Assembly: GCA_903936705.1 (NCBI GenBank)
Contig: CAIZWN010000022.1
Span: 1-61,761, forward strand
Length of the DNA stretch: 61,761 nucleotides
DNA from: an uncultured Myxococcales bacterium
GTDB lineage: Bacteria > Myxococcota_A > UBA9042 > DTJE01
Direction: 5' to 3'
Numbering within the stretch: position 1 is the first letter of the stretch; each line of letters starts with the position of its first letter. Under the pieces are notes generated by a model. That model was not told the origin of the DNA. It saw only the letters and a program-made list of their open reading frames with translations, and ran no database searches. This document shows positions 5,349 to 19,862 of the stretch, piece after piece. Position numbers and translations under genes: made by a program.

Positions 5349-6545
5349 ATGTCCTGTTCGAAATTGCGGGTGCTGATAGTGCCATCCTGGTATCCCATGG
5401 CACCCGCGCCATCTTACGGAGTCTTCTTCCGCGAGCAGGCACAAGCCCTGGCTAGGGCGGGGCTCGGCGTTTCGGCGGTTTTTCCCGAGATGCTGCCGGT
5501 CTTGCGAGCATCCGAATTCAATGTCGCCCGCGACGTCTTGCGTGGTTCATGGGAGACCGATGAGGACGGGGTCTTGACGCGACGGGTCCGAAGTTTCGCC
5601 CCCGATCGGTGGCCAACGGTCAGGGCCTGGTATTGGACCGCTGCCTGCGAGGCCCTGATTCTGCGCCATTGCGCCAGGCATGGCAGCCCCGACCTCATCC
5701 ACGCACACGGTGCTGCCTGGCCATTTTCTGCCGGGGCGTTAAGCGCGCGTGCCGCAGCCGCGGTCCTTCGGGTCCCGTACGTGGTGACCGAGCACGCCTC
5801 GGTCTTTCTGGAGAACCGACCGTTCCCGTACGGGCAGGCCGTCCGGATCCGCCAAGGTCTTGCATCGGCAGCGCGCGTTGTCGCCGTCAGCAGGGCTCTG
5901 GCTGCCCGACTTCGCCAGTGGGTTGACGAGGACCGCCTCGAGGTCGTCGGAAACCTTGTTGATTCCAGGTTCTTCACGATCCCCGACATGCGTCCCCAAA
6001 ACCCTACAATCCTATGCGTGGCAGGATTGGTGCCGAACAAGGATGTTGCAGGGCTGCTGCGTGGATACGCGGCTGCGTTTCCCGACGAGGCGTCGCCGGT
6101 CCTGGAAATCGGCGGCGACGGCCCCGAGCGAGCCAGTCTTGAAACGGAAGTAACGCGCCTGGGCCTTTCGGGCAGGGTTCGGTTCCTTGGTCACCTGGAC
6201 CGGAACGGGGTCCGCGATGCGTTGTGGCGCTGCGGTCTTTTCGTCCTGAACAGCCACCTTGAGACATTCGGTGTCGCACTGGTCGAGGCACTCGCCACCG
6301 GTGTACCGGTCGTGGCAACGCGCTGCGGCGGTCCCGAGGACGTGGTAGGCGAGGCTGATGGCCTGCTTGTCCCGCACGGCAACCCGAAAGTCCTGGCCCG
6401 GACACTTCGCACGGCCTGGCAGGCGCGAGACCGGTTCGATCCAGTCGGACTGCGAGAACGCGCAGTGACGCGATTCGGGGATAGGGCAATCTGCAACCGT
6501 CTGATCTCGCTGTACGAAAACGTGCTGGCCGGCCGGGCGCGCTGA
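5349..6545 (+). CDS. GT4 family glycosyltransferase
   Basis: A 398-residue GT-B fold glycosyltransferase. The N-terminus has the acceptor-lobe pattern LIVPSWYPMAPAPSYGVFFREQ, split here as IVPSWYP and GVFFREQAQAL. The donor lobe has LCVAGLVPNKDVAGLLRG near 222-239 and the E-x7-E site in LETFGVALVEALATG near 302-316. A GGG-containing ribosome site (CAGGGG) precedes the ATG; a TTG one codon upstream is less likely. It follows the adenylating gene by 117 bases, is in the same direction and probably belongs to the same glycan pathway. It converges on the RuBisCO-like gene with 46 bases between stops. Confidence 0.86.
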   Translation: MSCSKLRVLIVPSWYPMAPAPSYGVFFREQAQALARAGLGVSAVFPEMLPVLRASEFNVARDVLRGSWETDEDGVLTRRVRSFAPDRWPTVRAWYWTAACEALILRHCARHGSPDLIHAHGAAWPFSAGALSARAAAAVLRVPYVVTEHASVFLENRPFPYGQAVRIRQGLASAARVVAVSRALAARLRQWVDEDRLEVVGNLVDSRFFTIPDMRPQNPTILCVAGLVPNKDVAGLLRGYAAAFPDEASPVLEIGGDGPERASLETEVTRLGLSGRVRFLGHLDRNGVRDALWRCGLFVLNSHLETFGVALVEALATGVPVVATRCGGPEDVVGEADGLLVPHGNPKVLARTLRTAWQARDRFDPVGLRERAVTRFGDRAICNRLISLYENVLAGRAR

Positions 6546-13213: not shown

Positions 13214-14185
13214 ATGACAGTCGTCGAGTGCTCCTTGTGTCCGAAACAGTGCCGGATCCCCGAGGGTCGGGCCGGCGACTGCCGGATTCGCGTGAATGTC
13301 GGCGGCCGTCTGCGTGCTTCGACTTACGGCACGGTTGTCGCGGCTCATATCGACCCGATCGAAAAGAAGCCGTTCTTCCACTTTCACCCTGGTGCTACGG
13401 CATTGTCGGTAGCCACGGCCGGCTGCAATTTGCATTGCGATGCCTGCCAGAACTGGGAAATCTCCCAGGCTAATCCAGAGGATGTCGAGTCCCGTCCGCT
13501 GCCTCCTGACGAACTGGCCCGCATGGCGGTCAAGGAGGGCACTCCGTTTGTCGCATTCACTTACACGGAACCTATTGCCTACTACGAATATGCCTACGAT
13601 TCCGCAGTCGCTTGCACCAAACAGGGGATCGGCAGCGTTCTGGTGTCTGCCGGGTATGCAAACGACGGCCCGATGCGGGCGCTGCTGCGTGTGGTGCAGG
13701 CTGCGACCATCGACGTCAAGGCATTCGACGACGCCTTCTACCGGGCACGATGCGGTGGCAGCCTGAAGCCGGTGCTGAATACGCTGGTGGCCGCCAGGCA
13801 GGAAGGGGTCTGGCTGGAGGTGTCCAACCTGATCATCCCCGGCATGACCGACGATCCTGGAAAAATTGCAGATTTGTGCCGCTGGATGAAGGCAAACCTG
13901 GGCGAGGATGTTCCGCTGCACTTCCTGCGATTCGTCCCGCACTACCGCCTGCAGAACCTTCCGCCTACGCCGGTCCAGACGATGGATATGGCGTTGAAGA
14001 TCGCGCAGGACGCGGGGATTCGCTATGTCTACGTCGGAAACGTACCCGGGCACGCCTCGGGATCCACGCTGTGCGCGTCGTGCGGCGCCGTGGTGATCCG
14101 TCGCGAAGGTTACCGGTTGATGGGCATGAGCCTGTCAGGCGGGCGTTGCGCGTCGTGCAATGCCGCGATTCCGGGGGTATTTTGA
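13214..14185 (+). CDS. amrS: AmmeMemoRadiSam system radical SAM enzyme
   Basis: A 323-residue radical SAM protein of the AmrS type. The N-terminal Cys cluster CSLCPKQCRIPEGRAGDC (6-23) precedes the [4Fe-4S]/SAM motif C71-x3-C75-x2-C78 in CNLHCDACQNW. FTYTEP near 118 and the LIIPGMTDD segment near 213 belong to the barrel. The C-terminus has the typical pair CASC and CASC of a small zinc-ribbon-like tail. The reaction is unknown for the whole family. GGAGG sits five bases before the ATG. The gene leads a five-gene rightward cluster that contains the Memo and AMMECR1 partners and a membrane redox protein. Confidence 0.93.
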   Translation: MTVVECSLCPKQCRIPEGRAGDCRIRVNVGGRLRASTYGTVVAAHIDPIEKKPFFHFHPGATALSVATAGCNLHCDACQNWEISQANPEDVESRPLPPDELARMAVKEGTPFVAFTYTEPIAYYEYAYDSAVACTKQGIGSVLVSAGYANDGPMRALLRVVQAATIDVKAFDDAFYRARCGGSLKPVLNTLVAARQEGVWLEVSNLIIPGMTDDPGKIADLCRWMKANLGEDVPLHFLRFVPHYRLQNLPPTPVQTMDMALKIAQDAGIRYVYVGNVPGHASGSTLCASCGAVVIRREGYRLMGMSLSGGRCASCNAAIPGVF

Positions 14186-14406
14186 GGGATTTTCCCCATT
14201 GGCGAACCACCTGGGACGCGCGGGTTCCGATTTCCCGCCGAAGCTTCATGGCAACGGGCTTCGGATTGATCGCTTCGGCAGTGGCAGCCCGCATGGCAGC
14301 ACGAGAAGTGGAAGGTCCAGCCATACTTGCCAACGTAGGGAGGCCGATGCGACTGCGGCCCCTGACGCAAGAAGACCTGTACCGGGACCATTGCCTGGCT
14401 GGATAG
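14182..14406 (+). CDS. Small protein with a twin-arginine signal
   Basis: A 74-residue frame opening with TTG at 14182, which overlaps the AmrS stop (TTGA). GGGGG lies a few bases upstream. Its main feature is a Tat signal: SRRSFMATGFG followed by the hydrophobic LIASAVAARMAA, leaving a mature peptide of only about 35 residues that ends LTQEDLYRDHCLAG. It lies in a gap that would otherwise be empty between amrS and the Memo-AMMECR1 gene. Tat export normally serves folded, cofactor-bearing proteins, which is odd for so short a chain. It could be a chaperoned electron-transfer or metal peptide, or the remnant of a larger gene. The annotation rests on the Tat motif and the coupling. Confidence 0.5.
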   Translation: MRDFPHWRTTWDARVPISRRSFMATGFGLIASAVAARMAAREVEGPAILANVGRPMRLRPLTQEDLYRDHCLAG

Positions 14407-14419
14407 GTAGGAGGTCGTT

Positions 14420-16021
14420 ATGCGTGAACGCGAATTCGCGCAGCACGTTTCGCGCAACGTGGCAGCGTGGGTTGCGGCGGCCCTGGTCGTGGTGCTGTTG
14501 CCGACCGGGACTGCATGCAAGGGCAAGGGGGACGAAATCATGGCTATGAACCGCGACGACACCGGACCGAAGGCCCTGAACAGGAAGGTGCTGGATTCAC
14601 CGGTGGCCGGGTCCTGGTATCCGGCGGATCCGGTGGCCTTGAGGAAGGAACTGGAAAACAGCCTTGCTGCAGCCGACGTGACTGCGCGTCGCACCGGGTC
14701 GCGCGTGGCAGGCATCGTGTCGCCACACGCGGGCTACAGGTATTCCGGAGGGGTGGCGGCCTTCGGATACAGGCTGTTGCAGGGGCAGGCAGTCAGACGG
14801 GTGATCGTCATGGGCCCTTCGCACCATGTCGCGTTTCAGGGCATGGCCCTGCCTGATGCCACCCATTGGAGGACCCCGCTGGGGGAGGTACCTATCGACA
14901 CAACTGCCGTTGCCAGCCTGGCTAAAGTGCCGGGATTCGAGATACGACCTGGGGCATTCGCGCGCGAACACTCGGTGGACATGCAGGTGCCGTTCATTCA
15001 ATTGGTGGCGCCACAGGCGGTCCTGGTTCCAATCGTCGTGGGGAACTTGACGCCCCAGCAGGTCAGGGCGGCCGCGAACGCCATTCATCCTCTGCTGGAC
15101 GAGGGGACCGTGCTGGTTGCGTCGTCGGACTTTACCCACTACGGCGAAAACTTCGGGTACGTGCCCTTCCGGTCCGACGTGCCGGAGAACCTGAAGCGCC
15201 TTGCGGACGATGCATTGGCAGCCCTGCAGTCGGTGGACGCGGCGGCCTTTGACAGTCACCAGGAACGGACCGGCGACACGATCTGCGGACACAGTCCCAT
15301 ACAGGTGCTGCTGGAAGCGCTGCCGCGTACGGTCGAGGCCACTGTCCTGAAGTACGACACGTCGGGGAGGATGACCGGAGACTGGGCTCAGTCGGTATCA
15401 TACGCGTCCGTCGCGTTCCAGGTTCCTCCCGACAGGCGTGAGTTCCAGGGCATCCAGGTGCTTTCCGACGCCGACCAGCGCTTCCTGCTGGAACTTGCGC
15501 GAGAGACCCTGCGGCGGCATCTGGCCGATCGTCCGCTTCCGGATCCCGAACGGGAGGGAAAACTGCCGGATTCGGTCAAGAGGGATTACGGGGTGTTCGT
15601 CACGCTGAAGGAACACGGAGATCTCAGAGGTTGCATTGGGTCGATCGTGGCCGTCGAGCCGTTATGGGAAGGGGTGATTCGCAATACGGTAAACGCGGCG
15701 CAAAACGACTCGCGATTCTCGCCGGTCAGGTCCTCTGAGGAACCGCTGATCCAGATGGAGATATCCGTGCTGACGCCGCTTGCGGCAGTGCGGGGGCCCG
15801 AGGACATCGCCGTCGGGCGGGACGGCGTCCTGCTGACCAAGGGGCGGAATCGCGCGGTATTCCTGCCTCAGGTCGCACCCGAACAGGGGTGGGACCTGCC
15901 CACAACGCTGACACACCTTTCATCCAAGGCCGGGCTGCCTGGTGACGCATGGAAATCTGGGACCACGTTCGAGGTCTTCCAGGCCCAGGTGTTCCACGAG
16001 AAGGCACTGGAGCAGAAATGA
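14420..16021 (+). CDS. Exported Memo-AMMECR1 fusion (AmmeMemoRadiSam B and A)
   Basis: A 533-residue protein. Residues 1-33 form a signal peptide with a lipobox-like end (LLPTGTAC, Cys33), followed by KGKGDE. About 55-330 is the Memo domain, starting AGSWYPADP, with metal-site candidates in SPHAGYRYSGG, MGPSHH, EHSVDMQVPF, ASSDFTHYG and DTICGHSPI. About 345-530 is AMMECR1, with its hallmark LRGCIGSI near 402-409. Both families lack a settled function; Memo is a class III dioxygenase-like metal protein. The signal peptide is unexpected because most homologues are cytoplasmic. AGGAGG precedes the ATG at ideal spacing, which supports the N-terminus. Its stop overlaps the next start (ATGA). Confidence 0.9.
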   Translation: MREREFAQHVSRNVAAWVAAALVVVLLPTGTACKGKGDEIMAMNRDDTGPKALNRKVLDSPVAGSWYPADPVALRKELENSLAAADVTARRTGSRVAGIVSPHAGYRYSGGVAAFGYRLLQGQAVRRVIVMGPSHHVAFQGMALPDATHWRTPLGEVPIDTTAVASLAKVPGFEIRPGAFAREHSVDMQVPFIQLVAPQAVLVPIVVGNLTPQQVRAAANAIHPLLDEGTVLVASSDFTHYGENFGYVPFRSDVPENLKRLADDALAALQSVDAAAFDSHQERTGDTICGHSPIQVLLEALPRTVEATVLKYDTSGRMTGDWAQSVSYASVAFQVPPDRREFQGIQVLSDADQRFLLELARETLRRHLADRPLPDPEREGKLPDSVKRDYGVFVTLKEHGDLRGCIGSIVAVEPLWEGVIRNTVNAAQNDSRFSPVRSSEEPLIQMEISVLTPLAAVRGPEDIAVGRDGVLLTKGRNRAVFLPQVAPEQGWDLPTTLTHLSSKAGLPGDAWKSGTTFEVFQAQVFHEKALEQK

Positions 16022-19000
16022 GCCCGGTCTTCTCGTCCCGAGAGGCTAGGTACGCGGCGGCCGTCCTGGGCATGTTCACCCTGGTATCCCAGGCGGCTTT
16101 GCTGCGGGAATTCATGGTCCTGTACCGGGGCAGCGAACTGGCGCTGGGGGCGTTCTACGGATCCTGGTTTGTTGCAATTGCGGTCGCTGCGGCCGCGGCC
16201 GGAAACAGCCAATCGATCAGACGTGGCGCGGCGAGTGGCGCAAGGATGCTGCTGGCCATGTATCCGATCGGTGCAGCACTGGGACTGGTCCTGCTGGCCG
16301 GTGTCAGGCGGATGGCCGGGATTCCTTCGTGGGCTCCGATACCGCCGGATGTGACCATCATAGCCGGATTTGCGGCCACGCTTCCGGTCGGTTTCGTGAC
16401 TGGAGTACTTTTTCCGACCTTGTGTGACGCTGCAAACCCGGATGCCCAGCAAGGCGCCTCGTCCGGGTATGCCTGGGAAGCCGCCGGCGCCGTGGTCGGA
16501 GGTCTGGCTTCGGCCGCAATGTTCATGCTGGGTTTCGACGGGCCTACCGCCATCGCTTTAACCGGCCTTCCCGTGGCAGCGATCGCTTTGCCCTGGCGAG
16601 GGCGTCATTCGGCGCACGCAAGGTGGGTGCCAGTTGCGGTTGCCTCGCTGTGCCTGGCTGTGCTGGTGCCTCCAACCGGCCCGGCCTTGCGATCCGCACT
16701 TTCCGACATCCGCCTTCACAGCAACCTTTCGGGCGCGACCGTTGTCTCCGAAGTGTCCACTGCGCACGGGTTGGTGACGACTGCGCGCCTGGGATCTGGT
16801 ACCCACTTACTGATCGATGGTGAACTGGTGCTTGGTGTACCTTCCGGGCCCGACGTACCGGTGGAAGCCGCATTTCTCGCGGTCCAGCCGCTGCATCGCC
16901 AGCGGGCAATCGTCCTTGGGCCAGGACGCTTCGCCCTGGCGGTTTCATTGTGCCTGACGTTCGGACAGGTCGAGGTCGTAGGTCCGGACCGAGAAACGCT
17001 GGACGCGCTGCGCGGGGCGTGGGAGTCGGTCGAGGGAGTATTGCCCCCGAACCTTCGCCTGGTTGCCGGGGATCCCAGATCAAGAATCCGCGAGGCTTCA
17101 ACCGGCGCAGCGCTGTATGACCTTGTGATCGTCGGGGCCGGCGAACCGCGCACACTGCAAGACAACAGGCTGCATACGGTCGAATTCTTCCGGGAGTTGC
17201 AGAACGCCATGAACCAGGGCGGCGTGGCGGTGACGTCCTTCAGATCTGGCGAAAACGCCTTGACGCCCGAGGCTTTGCGCTTTGGCCGATCCATCCGTTC
17301 CAGCCTGGCTGCGGTGTTTCCCGAAGTCATGGCGGTCCCGGGTGATCCGGCACGCCTGTTTGCCACCGCTAATCGGGGACGCCTGACGCTTGATCGTGCA
17401 TCCCTGGAGCGCAGGGTACGCGAACTGGGGACATCGATTCCCGCAGCCATCGACCCGGCGCAGGTATCCCTGCTGGCTCACCCCGACCGTGCCGACTGGC
17501 TTGAGGGCCAGTTAGCTGCCGGGAACAACACCGAGGACCTGGTCAACCGCGATGATCGGCCAGTGGCTACATTTCTGTCCCTGCTTGCATCACTGCGAAT
17601 GACTGCCAGCGCCGGGGGGACTTTCCTGTGGGGGGCCCGGGAGGCTGGTCCGTTGCTGCCGATCGGCGCGTTGGTACTGGTTGTGCTGGTGGCCATGCGC
17701 CAGCTATTGCGCCGCCCCGGCGTTCCCGGTGCGGTGACGTCCCCAATGCTGATTGCCTTTGCTGGCGGGACGTCCATCGCGGCGACCATCGTGCTGATGG
17801 CCATCTGGCGGGCCCGCGTCGGCGCCCTTTACGGAGAGGTAGGTCTGGCTTCGTCCGCTGTGATGATCGGCGTGTTTCTTGGGGCGATCGCCGGAAGAAG
17901 ATTGTCCTTCCAGAACACTCGCCGGATGGCTTCGGCATTCTGCGTTGCGTCGGCTGGCGCGTTGCTGGCCATGTCGTGGACCCTTGATGCGACTGTCGAT
18001 TCATCGCCCATGGTCCTCCGCCTTTCGCTGGCCGCAATGCTGACGGTCTGCGGGGTGATCGCCGGCGCCGCGTGGCCGATTGCAGCAGTGCTTGGCGGGG
18101 CAGATCGGGTGTCGCAACGCCTGGAAGCGGCGGATCATGTCGGTGCCGCGACGGGTGCCGGCTTGGGCGGTCTTGCCGGCCTGGCGATTTTGGGGGCCGG
18201 CGGGGCGCTTCACGTTCTGGCCGCCGGCATGTGCCTAGTTCTGGTGATCCTGGTCGTTGATGCGGGCCTCGATACGGTTCCGGGCCGGCATTTCCTTGCG
18301 TCCGGAACCGGCCGCCTGCTGTCGGTCCGATCGTTTCCATCGCCGGCGGCGACCATCATCGTTGCGGCTGTGTTCCTGGTCGGCTTGTGGACCTGGCACG
18401 CCTCCCATGGCAGTGCCAGCGCCCCACGTACGCGGCTTTCCAGCGATGAATTGAGGGCGTTCGAGCGCTTTGATGCTTCCGAATGGCGGGAATCGCCTTT
18501 CGACCATTACAGGCTTACCGGGGTGGTAGATCCGACCGGTGATGCCGTGGTGGTGGCCAGCGCAGCAACCGGGCCAGGACCCGACGGGTACGGCGGACAG
18601 ATGAACCTTGCCCTGTCGATCGGTGATGACGGAATCGTGCGTCGGGTTGCAGTGCTGTCCCACCGCGAGACCCCGGCGTACACGACTGATCTGCCCGCAT
18701 GGATCCAGCATTTCAAGGGCATGAACATTCGGGACCTGGCGGCCGCGGGGGACCGTGCGGTGGACGCGATGACCGGAGCAACGGTCACCTCGCTGGCCGT
18801 GTCCGGAACTGTGGCATTGGCTGCCGGTCGCGTGGGCAACGAGATCCTGCACCTTCCGATGCCGACCCCGGCGCCTGAACGTCCGTGGCATGCGCCTTTG
18901 ACGGACCCATCTGTCTGGTACGCAATCGTGCTGCTGGCTGGCGCGATCGTGGTCCACTTCAGGGGCTCTGCCAACGTTCGCCTTGGCTTCCTGGTGGCCT

Positions 19001-19653
19001 CGGCTGTCGTCGGAGGCTGGCTGCTGAATGTCCAGCTTTCGGCCGGATGGCTTCTTTCGCTGCTGACGCTGAACCTGCCGTCGTTTACGGCGGCACCGGC
19101 GGTTGCAGTCCTTGGTTGGGGATTTCTGATGCTGGCCTTGGTTGTTGGACCTGTCCATTGTGCTCACGCCTGTCCGTTCGGGGCGATCCAGGAGTGTGTC
19201 TCGCTGATTGGCCAACGTCTGGGCCTGAAGGTTGCGATGCCTGCAAAGGCACACTCGGCCTTCCGCGCAATCAAGTACCTGGTGCTGGCCGCACTGGCGC
19301 TGCTGCCGTTCACATATAACGCCAGTGCTCGCCTGGACTGGGACCCGATGGCAGCCGTCTTTTCCGGAGGCACCGACGGCACCGGTGCGCTGGTGGTCAT
19401 CCTGTCATTGGCCGGATCGCTGTTCACGTTTCGCTTCTGGTGCCGCGGCTTCTGCCCTGTAGGCGCCTTCTTCAACCTGTTCAACCACCTGGCATGCCAT
19501 ATCGGACTGTCACCTGCTCGCCGACATGTCGCCTGCGACCTTGGAATCCGGGAGGCTGGCGATATCGACTGCCTGCAGTGCAACCGATGCACCAGAGAAG
19601 CCGGCACTCGCATGCCCACCGGATCCAACTTCACTCAGAAGGCTCAGCCATGA
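16018..19653 (+). CDS. Polytopic membrane protein: spermidine-synthase-like + FMN-binding + NapH/NosR-type ferredoxin domains
   Basis: A 1211-residue multidomain membrane protein. Residues 1 to about 230 carry several membrane helices. About 235-500 is a soluble spermidine-synthase-like Rossmann region (RAIVLGPGRFALAVS, then LYDLVIVGAGEP). A second block of helices runs to about 790. About 800-950 is an FMN-binding domain with the flavinylation motif D916-A-M-T-G-A-T922, in which T922 would carry FMN. The C-terminal part resembles NapH/NosR, with helices around C1048-x3-C1052-P and C1142-x3-C1146-P, then C1173, C1185, C1188 and C1191. Electrons probably pass between flavin and iron-sulfur sites across the membrane. 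The ATG overlaps the previous stop by four bases. The spermidine-synthase-like part keeps no clear catalytic motif. Confidence 0.85.
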   Translation: MSPVFSSREARYAAAVLGMFTLVSQAALLREFMVLYRGSELALGAFYGSWFVAIAVAAAAAGNSQSIRRGAASGARMLLAMYPIGAALGLVLLAGVRRMAGIPSWAPIPPDVTIIAGFAATLPVGFVTGVLFPTLCDAANPDAQQGASSGYAWEAAGAVVGGLASAAMFMLGFDGPTAIALTGLPVAAIALPWRGRHSAHARWVPVAVASLCLAVLVPPTGPALRSALSDIRLHSNLSGATVVSEVSTAHGLVTTARLGSGTHLLIDGELVLGVPSGPDVPVEAAFLAVQPLHRQRAIVLGPGRFALAVSLCLTFGQVEVVGPDRETLDALRGAWESVEGVLPPNLRLVAGDPRSRIREASTGAALYDLVIVGAGEPRTLQDNRLHTVEFFRELQNAMNQGGVAVTSFRSGENALTPEALRFGRSIRSSLAAVFPEVMAVPGDPARLFATANRGRLTLDRASLERRVRELGTSIPAAIDPAQVSLLAHPDRADWLEGQLAAGNNTEDLVNRDDRPVATFLSLLASLRMTASAGGTFLWGAREAGPLLPIGALVLVVLVAMRQLLRRPGVPGAVTSPMLIAFAGGTSIAATIVLMAIWRARVGALYGEVGLASSAVMIGVFLGAIAGRRLSFQNTRRMASAFCVASAGALLAMSWTLDATVDSSPMVLRLSLAAMLTVCGVIAGAAWPIAAVLGGADRVSQRLEAADHVGAATGAGLGGLAGLAILGAGGALHVLAAGMCLVLVILVVDAGLDTVPGRHFLASGTGRLLSVRSFPSPAATIIVAAVFLVGLWTWHASHGSASAPRTRLSSDELRAFERFDASEWRESPFDHYRLTGVVDPTGDAVVVASAATGPGPDGYGGQMNLALSIGDDGIVRRVAVLSHRETPAYTTDLPAWIQHFKGMNIRDLAAAGDRAVDAMTGATVTSLAVSGTVALAAGRVGNEILHLPMPTPAPERPWHAPLTDPSVWYAIVLLAGAIVVHFRGSANVRLGFLVASAVVGGWLLNVQLSAGWLLSLLTLNLPSFTAAPAVAVLGWGFLMLALVVGPVHCAHACPFGAIQECVSLIGQRLGLKVAMPAKAHSAFRAIKYLVLAALALLPFTYNASARLDWDPMAAVFSGGTDGTGALVVILSLAGSLFTFRFWCRGFCPVGAFFNLFNHLACHIGLSPARRHVACDLGIREAGDIDCLQCNRCTREAGTRMPTGSNFTQKAQP

Positions 19654-19862
19654 AACGTCTGGCCGCCATACTCCTGGTCCTGATGACGCTGGCCACGACT
19701 CTGCTGATCGCACGCGGCATGCTTGAAGGCGCTCAAGGCAGCCTGGTCGAGGGCGCCACCCCTGGCCTGCGGGCAGTCGACATGGACAGATATCTACGTC
19801 GTGTCCAGGAAGGCCGACTATCCGACCGGGAAGCCTTGTGGTGGGTACCACTGCAGCAGTAG
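19650..19862 (+). CDS. Small single-span membrane protein
   Basis: A 70-residue protein whose ATG overlaps the stop of the 1211-residue redox protein (ATGA). The N-terminus MKRLAAILLVLMTLATTLLIARG is one membrane helix or signal anchor; the remaining 45 residues are polar and extracytoplasmic if the positive-inside rule holds. The tail contains DMDRYLRRVQEGRLSDREALWW. I do not recognise a family. The position suggests an accessory subunit of the redox complex. About 155 bases without a gene follow before the next start. Confidence 0.65.
   Translation: MKRLAAILLVLMTLATTLLIARGMLEGAQGSLVEGATPGLRAVDMDRYLRRVQEGRLSDREALWWVPLQQ

Follow-up and report, generated by a model that had tools for sequence, protein, structure and literature searches.

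Five genes at positions 13214-19862 of the window (the whole stretch analysed here, 61,761 nucleotides of contig CAIZWN010000022.1, assembly GCA_903936705.1, from an uncultured Myxococcales bacterium) appear to encode an AmmeMemoRadiSam system that works outside the cytoplasm. In the reading preferred here, to which we assign a probability of about one half, the radical S-adenosylmethionine (SAM) enzyme AmrS is docked on a flavin/iron-sulfur conduit in the membrane. The extracytoplasmic location by itself is well supported by the comparison of sequences and is quite probable. The cluster consists of the following features.

13214..14185, + strand: radical SAM enzyme AmrS, 323 aa (TIGR04337 match)
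14182..14406, + strand: mini-protein with a twin-arginine translocation (Tat) signal, 74 aa, TTG start (SRRSF Tat motif, alignment of relatives)
14420..16021, + strand: Memo-AMMECR1 fusion, 533 aa, with a lipoprotein-type leader (PF01875, PF01871)
16018-19653, + strand: redox membrane protein, whole, 1211 residues (FMN_bind and two Fer4_5 motifs)
16018..18351, + strand: residues 1-778 of the redox protein, a membrane module with a spermidine-synthase fold (PRK03612, AlphaFold2, PDB match 1uir)
18547..18852, + strand: flavin mononucleotide (FMN)-binding domain, about residues 844-945 of the redox protein (PF04205, motif DAMTGATVTS)
18895..19653, + strand: NapH/NosR-like five-helix module of the redox protein (PF12801, NosR-like match)
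19650..19862, + strand: small single-helix membrane protein, 70 aa (conserved across phyla)

Neighbouring genes are separated or overlap by only a few bases, and the TTG start of the mini-protein overlaps the stop of AmrS. All five genes had been described at the same positions by a model that saw the letters alone (the original prediction), and each of them was found again. The three AmmeMemoRadiSam families score above their curated NCBIfam cut-offs, with 361 bits for TIGR04337 (cut-off 220, match from model position 12), 230 bits for TIGR04336 and 165 bits for TIGR04335. The Memo (PF01875) and AMMECR1 (PF01871) domains of the fusion reach 206 and 167 bits.

The AmmeMemoRadiSam families span all domains of life, and human MEMO1 and AMMECR1 belong to two of them; to our knowledge, the families have no settled function. 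In a version outside the cytoplasm, with its few dedicated partners, one can see which components form a set, and the function becomes accessible to tests. Whatever an exported AmrS requires, namely an electron donor and a supply of SAM, should be encoded nearby. If the reading is true, AmrS would be the first known case of a radical-SAM enzyme active beyond the cytoplasm, breaking the working rule that chemistry dependent on SAM and very low-potential electrons is confined to that compartment.

Screening 84,980 species with a Memo-AMMECR1 profile yielded 80 loci. The same five-gene order recurs in at least eight phyla and was found in Myxococcota, Planctomycetota, Verrucomicrobiota, Kiritimatiellota, Lentisphaerota, Hydrogenedentota, Spirochaetota and Bdellovibrionota, and in two Pseudomonadota assemblies. 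Greedy gene calling on the GC-rich loci produced false long open reading frames, and the conclusions are based on profile hits instead.

The fusion has a hydrophobic leader, VVVLLPTGTAC, which ends in TAC followed by K. Signal peptides were recognized by simple hydrophobicity rules, not by a trained predictor. A strong Memo leader is present in 53 of the 56 loci of the exported clade (defined below), the other three being borderline or partial, and in none of 12 cytosolic loci, in agreement with the export of Memo-AMMECR1 originally predicted. H103, H135 and C289, in the region aligned with the metal site of MEMO1, are conserved in the fusion. At L096, L104, L107, L115, L116, L117, L123 and L131, which belong to Scalindua, Brocadiaceae and other Planctomycetota, Memo-AMMECR1 has a second AMMECR1 domain; most of these loci have an exported leader and none has a full-length AmrS adjoining.

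The mini-protein of the window has the SRRSF motif, a hydrophobic stretch and the C-terminal end RPLTQEDLYRDHCLAG. A mini-protein with RR and a hydrophobic stretch is found in 51 of 52 gaps between AmrS and Memo, and has RRxF in 47 of them. The one gap outside the rule, at L169, contains a short LAG-ended frame that the rule missed. The C-terminal residue is Gly (WxG or LAG) in 49 of the 51, and the alignment of relatives has a conserved tail, YPGxVxPL...KWxG. Among 113 distinct AmrS, no Gly-ended mini-protein lies beside any cytosolic one. The TIGR01409 cut-off is reached by the mini-protein of L059 only. Apart from weak Tat-signal matches, neither the mini-protein nor the 70-residue protein falls into a curated Pfam or NCBIfam family, and both are conserved across phyla. 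The mini-proteins of L051 (about 5960-6140) and L118 (about 5690-5880) lack the Gly tail and have AmrS-like ends (AGRKAMFFRKGA and FREANWYRRGGKSP), resembling a cut-off piece of an AmrS that carries its own Tat signal.

AmrS itself is probably exported. Its CxxxCxxC motif (C71/C75/C78) is invariant in 53 aligned AmrS sequences. Twelve AmrS relatives, chosen by reading the reading frames, have an N-terminal Tat signal of their own, such as MYQRCPRRQFLKMSTACAGGAFLALSG in L112, which also has a weak Pfam Tat-signal match, and MVINRRQFLKAIGTCTALS in L063. An apparent Tat signal on the AmrS of L034 was not counted, being read-through ahead of the probable start. The Tat-bearing AmrS of L063, L079, L092, L112 and L132 adjoin an exported Memo-AMMECR1. 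The two forms of export, with the signal on AmrS or on a separate mini-protein, never co-occur. In a maximum-likelihood tree the 12 Tat-bearing AmrS, the 52 linked to a mini-protein and five unlabelled ones form one clade (support 100/96), which contains no AmrS whose Memo is leaderless, and the cytosolic AmrS are separate. Most simply, export thus arose once within the sample. The mini-protein is best read as the detached export signal of AmrS. Three members of the cluster are then probably exported, one more than the two of the original prediction, which had recognized export but not that of AmrS. One genome, G286, has three versions of AmrS: cytosolic, five-gene and Tat-bearing.

Behind the Tat-bearing AmrS, L079 (10209-12434) and L112 (5645-7857) have two similar genes of unknown kind, one membrane-anchored with an MKNLFL start and one lipoprotein-like, which are followed by carA- and carB-like genes. 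The pair possibly belongs to the Tat-AmrS branch. A rearranged version is found at L190 (2551-6876), where an AMMECR1 domain immediately precedes the spermidine-synthase-like module and a Tat-bearing AmrS follows.

The redox protein accompanies exported AmrS. For 37 of the 52 AmrS that adjoin a mini-protein, the fragment also encodes all three redox domains, whereas no redox domain lies near 46 of the 49 AmrS with neither mini-protein nor Tat signal. When the 284 genomes of the phylum were searched with the membrane protein, matches came from 24 genomes, and nearly all of the close ones adjoin Memo-AMMECR1. A profile of the redox protein gives specific matches of at least 148 bits in 28 genomes and, after a gap, weaker ones of at most 126 bits, apparently to spermidine synthases in general or to NosR proteins. 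AmrS of the exported type occurs in 26 of the 28 genomes with a specific match versus 4 of the 256 others (Fisher p ~2e-30, only a guide because of kinship among the genomes). The original prediction had proposed a survey of gene order and had taken a general lack of signal peptides or of the redox gene as the sign of chance adjacency. The order does recur across phyla, the exported AmrS clade mostly has both, and AmrS loci lacking the redox gene outside that clade lack the leaders as well.

In the redox protein, residues 1 to about 800 make up a spermidine-synthase-like membrane module, which is followed by an FMN-binding domain and then by a NapH/NosR-like module. That a flavin/iron-sulfur membrane protein belongs to the cluster had been predicted and is borne out by the FMN_bind match and the two Fer4_5 motifs; the prediction had left the first two thirds of the protein unnamed. 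The AlphaFold2 model, obtained with 40 relatives, has a mean predicted local distance difference test score (pLDDT) of 89.8 and a predicted TM-score (pTM) of 0.88. Residues 1-778 form seven helices, the spermidine-synthase-fold domain (241-545) and seven more helices, and an eighth helix (779-798) runs into the FMN domain. The loop charges, read by the positive-inside rule, predict the N-terminus inside, seven helices, the spermidine-synthase-fold domain outside, eight helices, the FMN domain outside, five helices and the iron-sulfur C-terminus inside. Comparison of the loci thus reveals, besides a conserved cluster with leaders on Memo-AMMECR1 and predicted Tat signals on or beside AmrS, a pattern of predicted topology.

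The spermidine-synthase-like part was matched by PRK03612 (40 bits, window) and by Pfam Spermine_synth (41 bits, L095), and the fold domain superimposes on PDB 1uir with a TM-score of 0.65 on the target. The fold and the nucleotide-site residues G301, D324 and D368 are shared with the membrane-bound polyamine aminopropyltransferase/spermidine synthase PRK03612. However, none of the 40 relatives has D at position 373, the first Asp of the DxxD motif (33 of 40 have D or E at the second position), and the predicted location of the domain is outside. With the first catalytic Asp gone, an ordinary aminopropyltransferase is unlikely, and identification as a plain spermidine synthase was rejected. 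It is a fair guess that the domain binds an adenosyl compound.

The FMN domain scores 43 bits against PF04205 and has the flavinylation motif DAMTGATVTS. The predicted attachment position, 924, is Ser or Thr in 40 of 40 relatives, and GAT is invariant. The NapH/NosR-like module has two CxxxCP motifs, of which C1048, C1052, C1142 and C1146 are invariant, and a C-terminal CxxCxxC; it scores 42 bits against PF12801 and 61 bits against a NosR-like model. NosR, the maturation factor or electron donor of nitrous oxide reductase, likewise has an FMN domain, membrane helices and CxxxCP, but identity with it was rejected, as 60.7 bits compares with a NosR cut-off of 1000. The NapH-like flavinylated systems (Meheust et al. 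2021, PMC8238504) are similar in having an extracytosolic FMN_bind domain with a flavinylation motif, then a NapH/PF12801 module, and ApbE in the genome. In the window genome ApbE (one copy, contig C68) and TatC are both encoded outside the cluster, and the present cluster differs from those systems in its AmrS and Memo-AMMECR1 partners and in the spermidine-synthase-like module fused in front. At L039 (3156-9998) genes that look by eye to be of the Rnf type adjoin the redox protein, and at L047 (1161-3396) an RnfC/PduS-like gene does so; in these two relatives from the phylum the neighbours are a possible electron source.

The AmrS of the window starts at its CxLCP motif and lacks an N-terminal EAxYY segment, a feature that had escaped the original prediction. 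A segment of this kind, such as KEAMYYKQLPEMRVEC, opens the cytosolic and the Tat-bearing AmrS just ahead of the first cysteines, and in the L112 model (AlphaFold2) the N-terminal segment is placed very confidently (pLDDT 98). In the five-gene loci AmrS starts at the cysteines, without the segment. The tail of the small membrane protein, ending in LRRVQEGRLSDREALWWVPLQQ, resembles the segment that AmrS is missing; the corresponding tails are DREALWWVPL in the window, DHEAMYYRKL in L108 and NKEALFYKKL in L103. With a matrix made from AmrS N-termini only, 35 of 45 loci have a match to the segment (p<0.05) downstream of the NapH module, and in 25 of 47 loci the redox protein itself continues into the tail as one fused chain. 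The charge bias of the small protein is N-in in 34 of 40 cases, which places the tail outside. The small membrane protein may thus supply, in trans, a docking tail for AmrS on the outer face of the membrane.

The following sequence of events can be envisaged. AmrS would fold in the cytoplasm with its iron-sulfur cluster and leave through Tat as the passenger of the mini-protein. Hydrogenases and formate dehydrogenases are known examples in which a signal-less cofactor protein leaves together with a Tat-bearing partner (PMC10924467), although the predicted carrier in this case, about 50-90 residues long, is a mini-protein rather than an enzyme subunit. Outside, the small protein would offer its periplasmic tail as a docking site for AmrS, restoring the N-terminal segment and tying the enzyme to the large membrane protein. 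Electrons would enter at the cytoplasmic or quinol side and pass through the iron-sulfur clusters to the covalent FMN and most likely on to the [4Fe-4S] cluster of AmrS, the redox protein taking the role of the cytosolic flavodoxin. The spermidine-synthase-fold domain, predicted to be outside, would probably bind SAM or an adenosyl product, and the membrane-anchored Memo-AMMECR1 would act with AmrS on a substrate at the same face.

These steps differ in how probable they are. Electron delivery to AmrS falls slightly short of even odds; we infer AmrS as the acceptor, and the electrons might go elsewhere in the periplasm. A complete radical-SAM reaction outside the cytoplasm, with Tat-exported AmrS, electrons from the conduit and SAM presented by the spermidine-synthase-fold module as receptor, is put forward more tentatively.

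Several observations weigh against docked, extracytoplasmic AmrS. The placement of AmrS outside is based on comparing sequences, and nearly all members are metagenome assemblies. Most loci with Tat-bearing AmrS have no adjoining FMN/NapH gene, and 3 of the 12 have the spermidine-synthase-like part only, so that the FMN module is not universal. The likeness between the tail and the AmrS N-terminus spans only about 10 residues, and L051 and L118 have the segment both on the mini-protein and on the small tail, which a simple split would not predict; for these two reasons the docking step is worded conditionally here. SAM is not known to occur in the periplasm, and none of the literature found describes it outside the cytoplasm. 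The potentials of RnfG/NqrC-type FMN exceed what a radical-SAM cluster normally needs, although outward electron flow would be favoured by the membrane potential.

Two other explanations, each improbable to a similar degree, account for part of the data. In the first, AmrS remains in the cytoplasm and modifies the mini-protein at its C-terminal Gly or tail, in the manner of a ribosomally synthesized and post-translationally modified peptide, and the exported peptide is used or anchored by Memo-AMMECR1 and the redox protein. Such a role would suit the nearly constant Gly (49 of 51) and the conserved YPGxVxPL...KWxG tail. The closest fold to the AmrS relative L112, that of pyruvate formate-lyase (PFL)-activase, was solved with a peptide substrate, and a radical SAM protein related to AmrS occurs in peptide-processing systems (PMC7159879). 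However, the same clade includes AmrS with their own Tat signal and no mini-protein, the mini-proteins of L051 and L118 do without the Gly tail, and the charge of the small protein puts its AmrS-like tail on the outside.

In the second, the redox protein has another periplasmic task, for example to reduce or load Memo at its Fe/Cu site, or else an external metal or oxidase, with AmrS and the mini-protein aiding assembly only, on the model of NosR and nitrous oxide reductase. The C-terminal module is indeed most like NosR and NapH (61 and 40 bits), the metal-ligand region of Memo is conserved, and MEMO1 binds Fe(II) or Cu(I) (PMC11918410). But across genomes the presence of the redox protein follows that of exported-type AmrS, non-adjacent cases included, and the fused tail of the redox protein resembles AmrS, not Memo. 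A loose neighbourhood of unrelated housekeeping genes sharing an operon, to which the seemingly unrelated flanks (RNase PH upstream, nucleotide-sugar and glycosyltransferase genes downstream, as judged from translations) might point, is very improbable and was rejected by the cross-phylum survey, given the same order in many phyla, the gene fusions and the genome-level co-occurrence, as the original prediction had also held.

The cytosolic AmmeMemoRadiSam systems (TIGR04335, TIGR04336, TIGR04337) have the same three families, frequently adjacent, and the same radical-SAM, Memo and AMMECR1 motifs. They differ in that Memo-AMMECR1 is fused and exported here, AmrS is accompanied by a Tat mini-protein or has its own signal, and a flavin/iron-sulfur membrane protein is present; the cytosolic clade has none of these additions. 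The main texts of the extracytosolic flavinylation papers found, PMC8238504 included, do not mention AMMECR1, Memo or AmrS, and the literature found contains neither a NapH module combined with spermidine synthase nor an exported (Tat) radical-SAM enzyme. Burroughs et al. 2019 (JBC), cited for "Memo-Ammecr1 systems" in a passage of PMC7159879, may hold an earlier mention of membrane-linked versions. We regard the cluster as an AmmeMemoRadiSam variant that is new, although part of it may have been noted in that paper. The window genome has a second Memo gene, which lacks a leader (contig C75, 32231-33016, L002) and presumably belongs to a cytosolic system.

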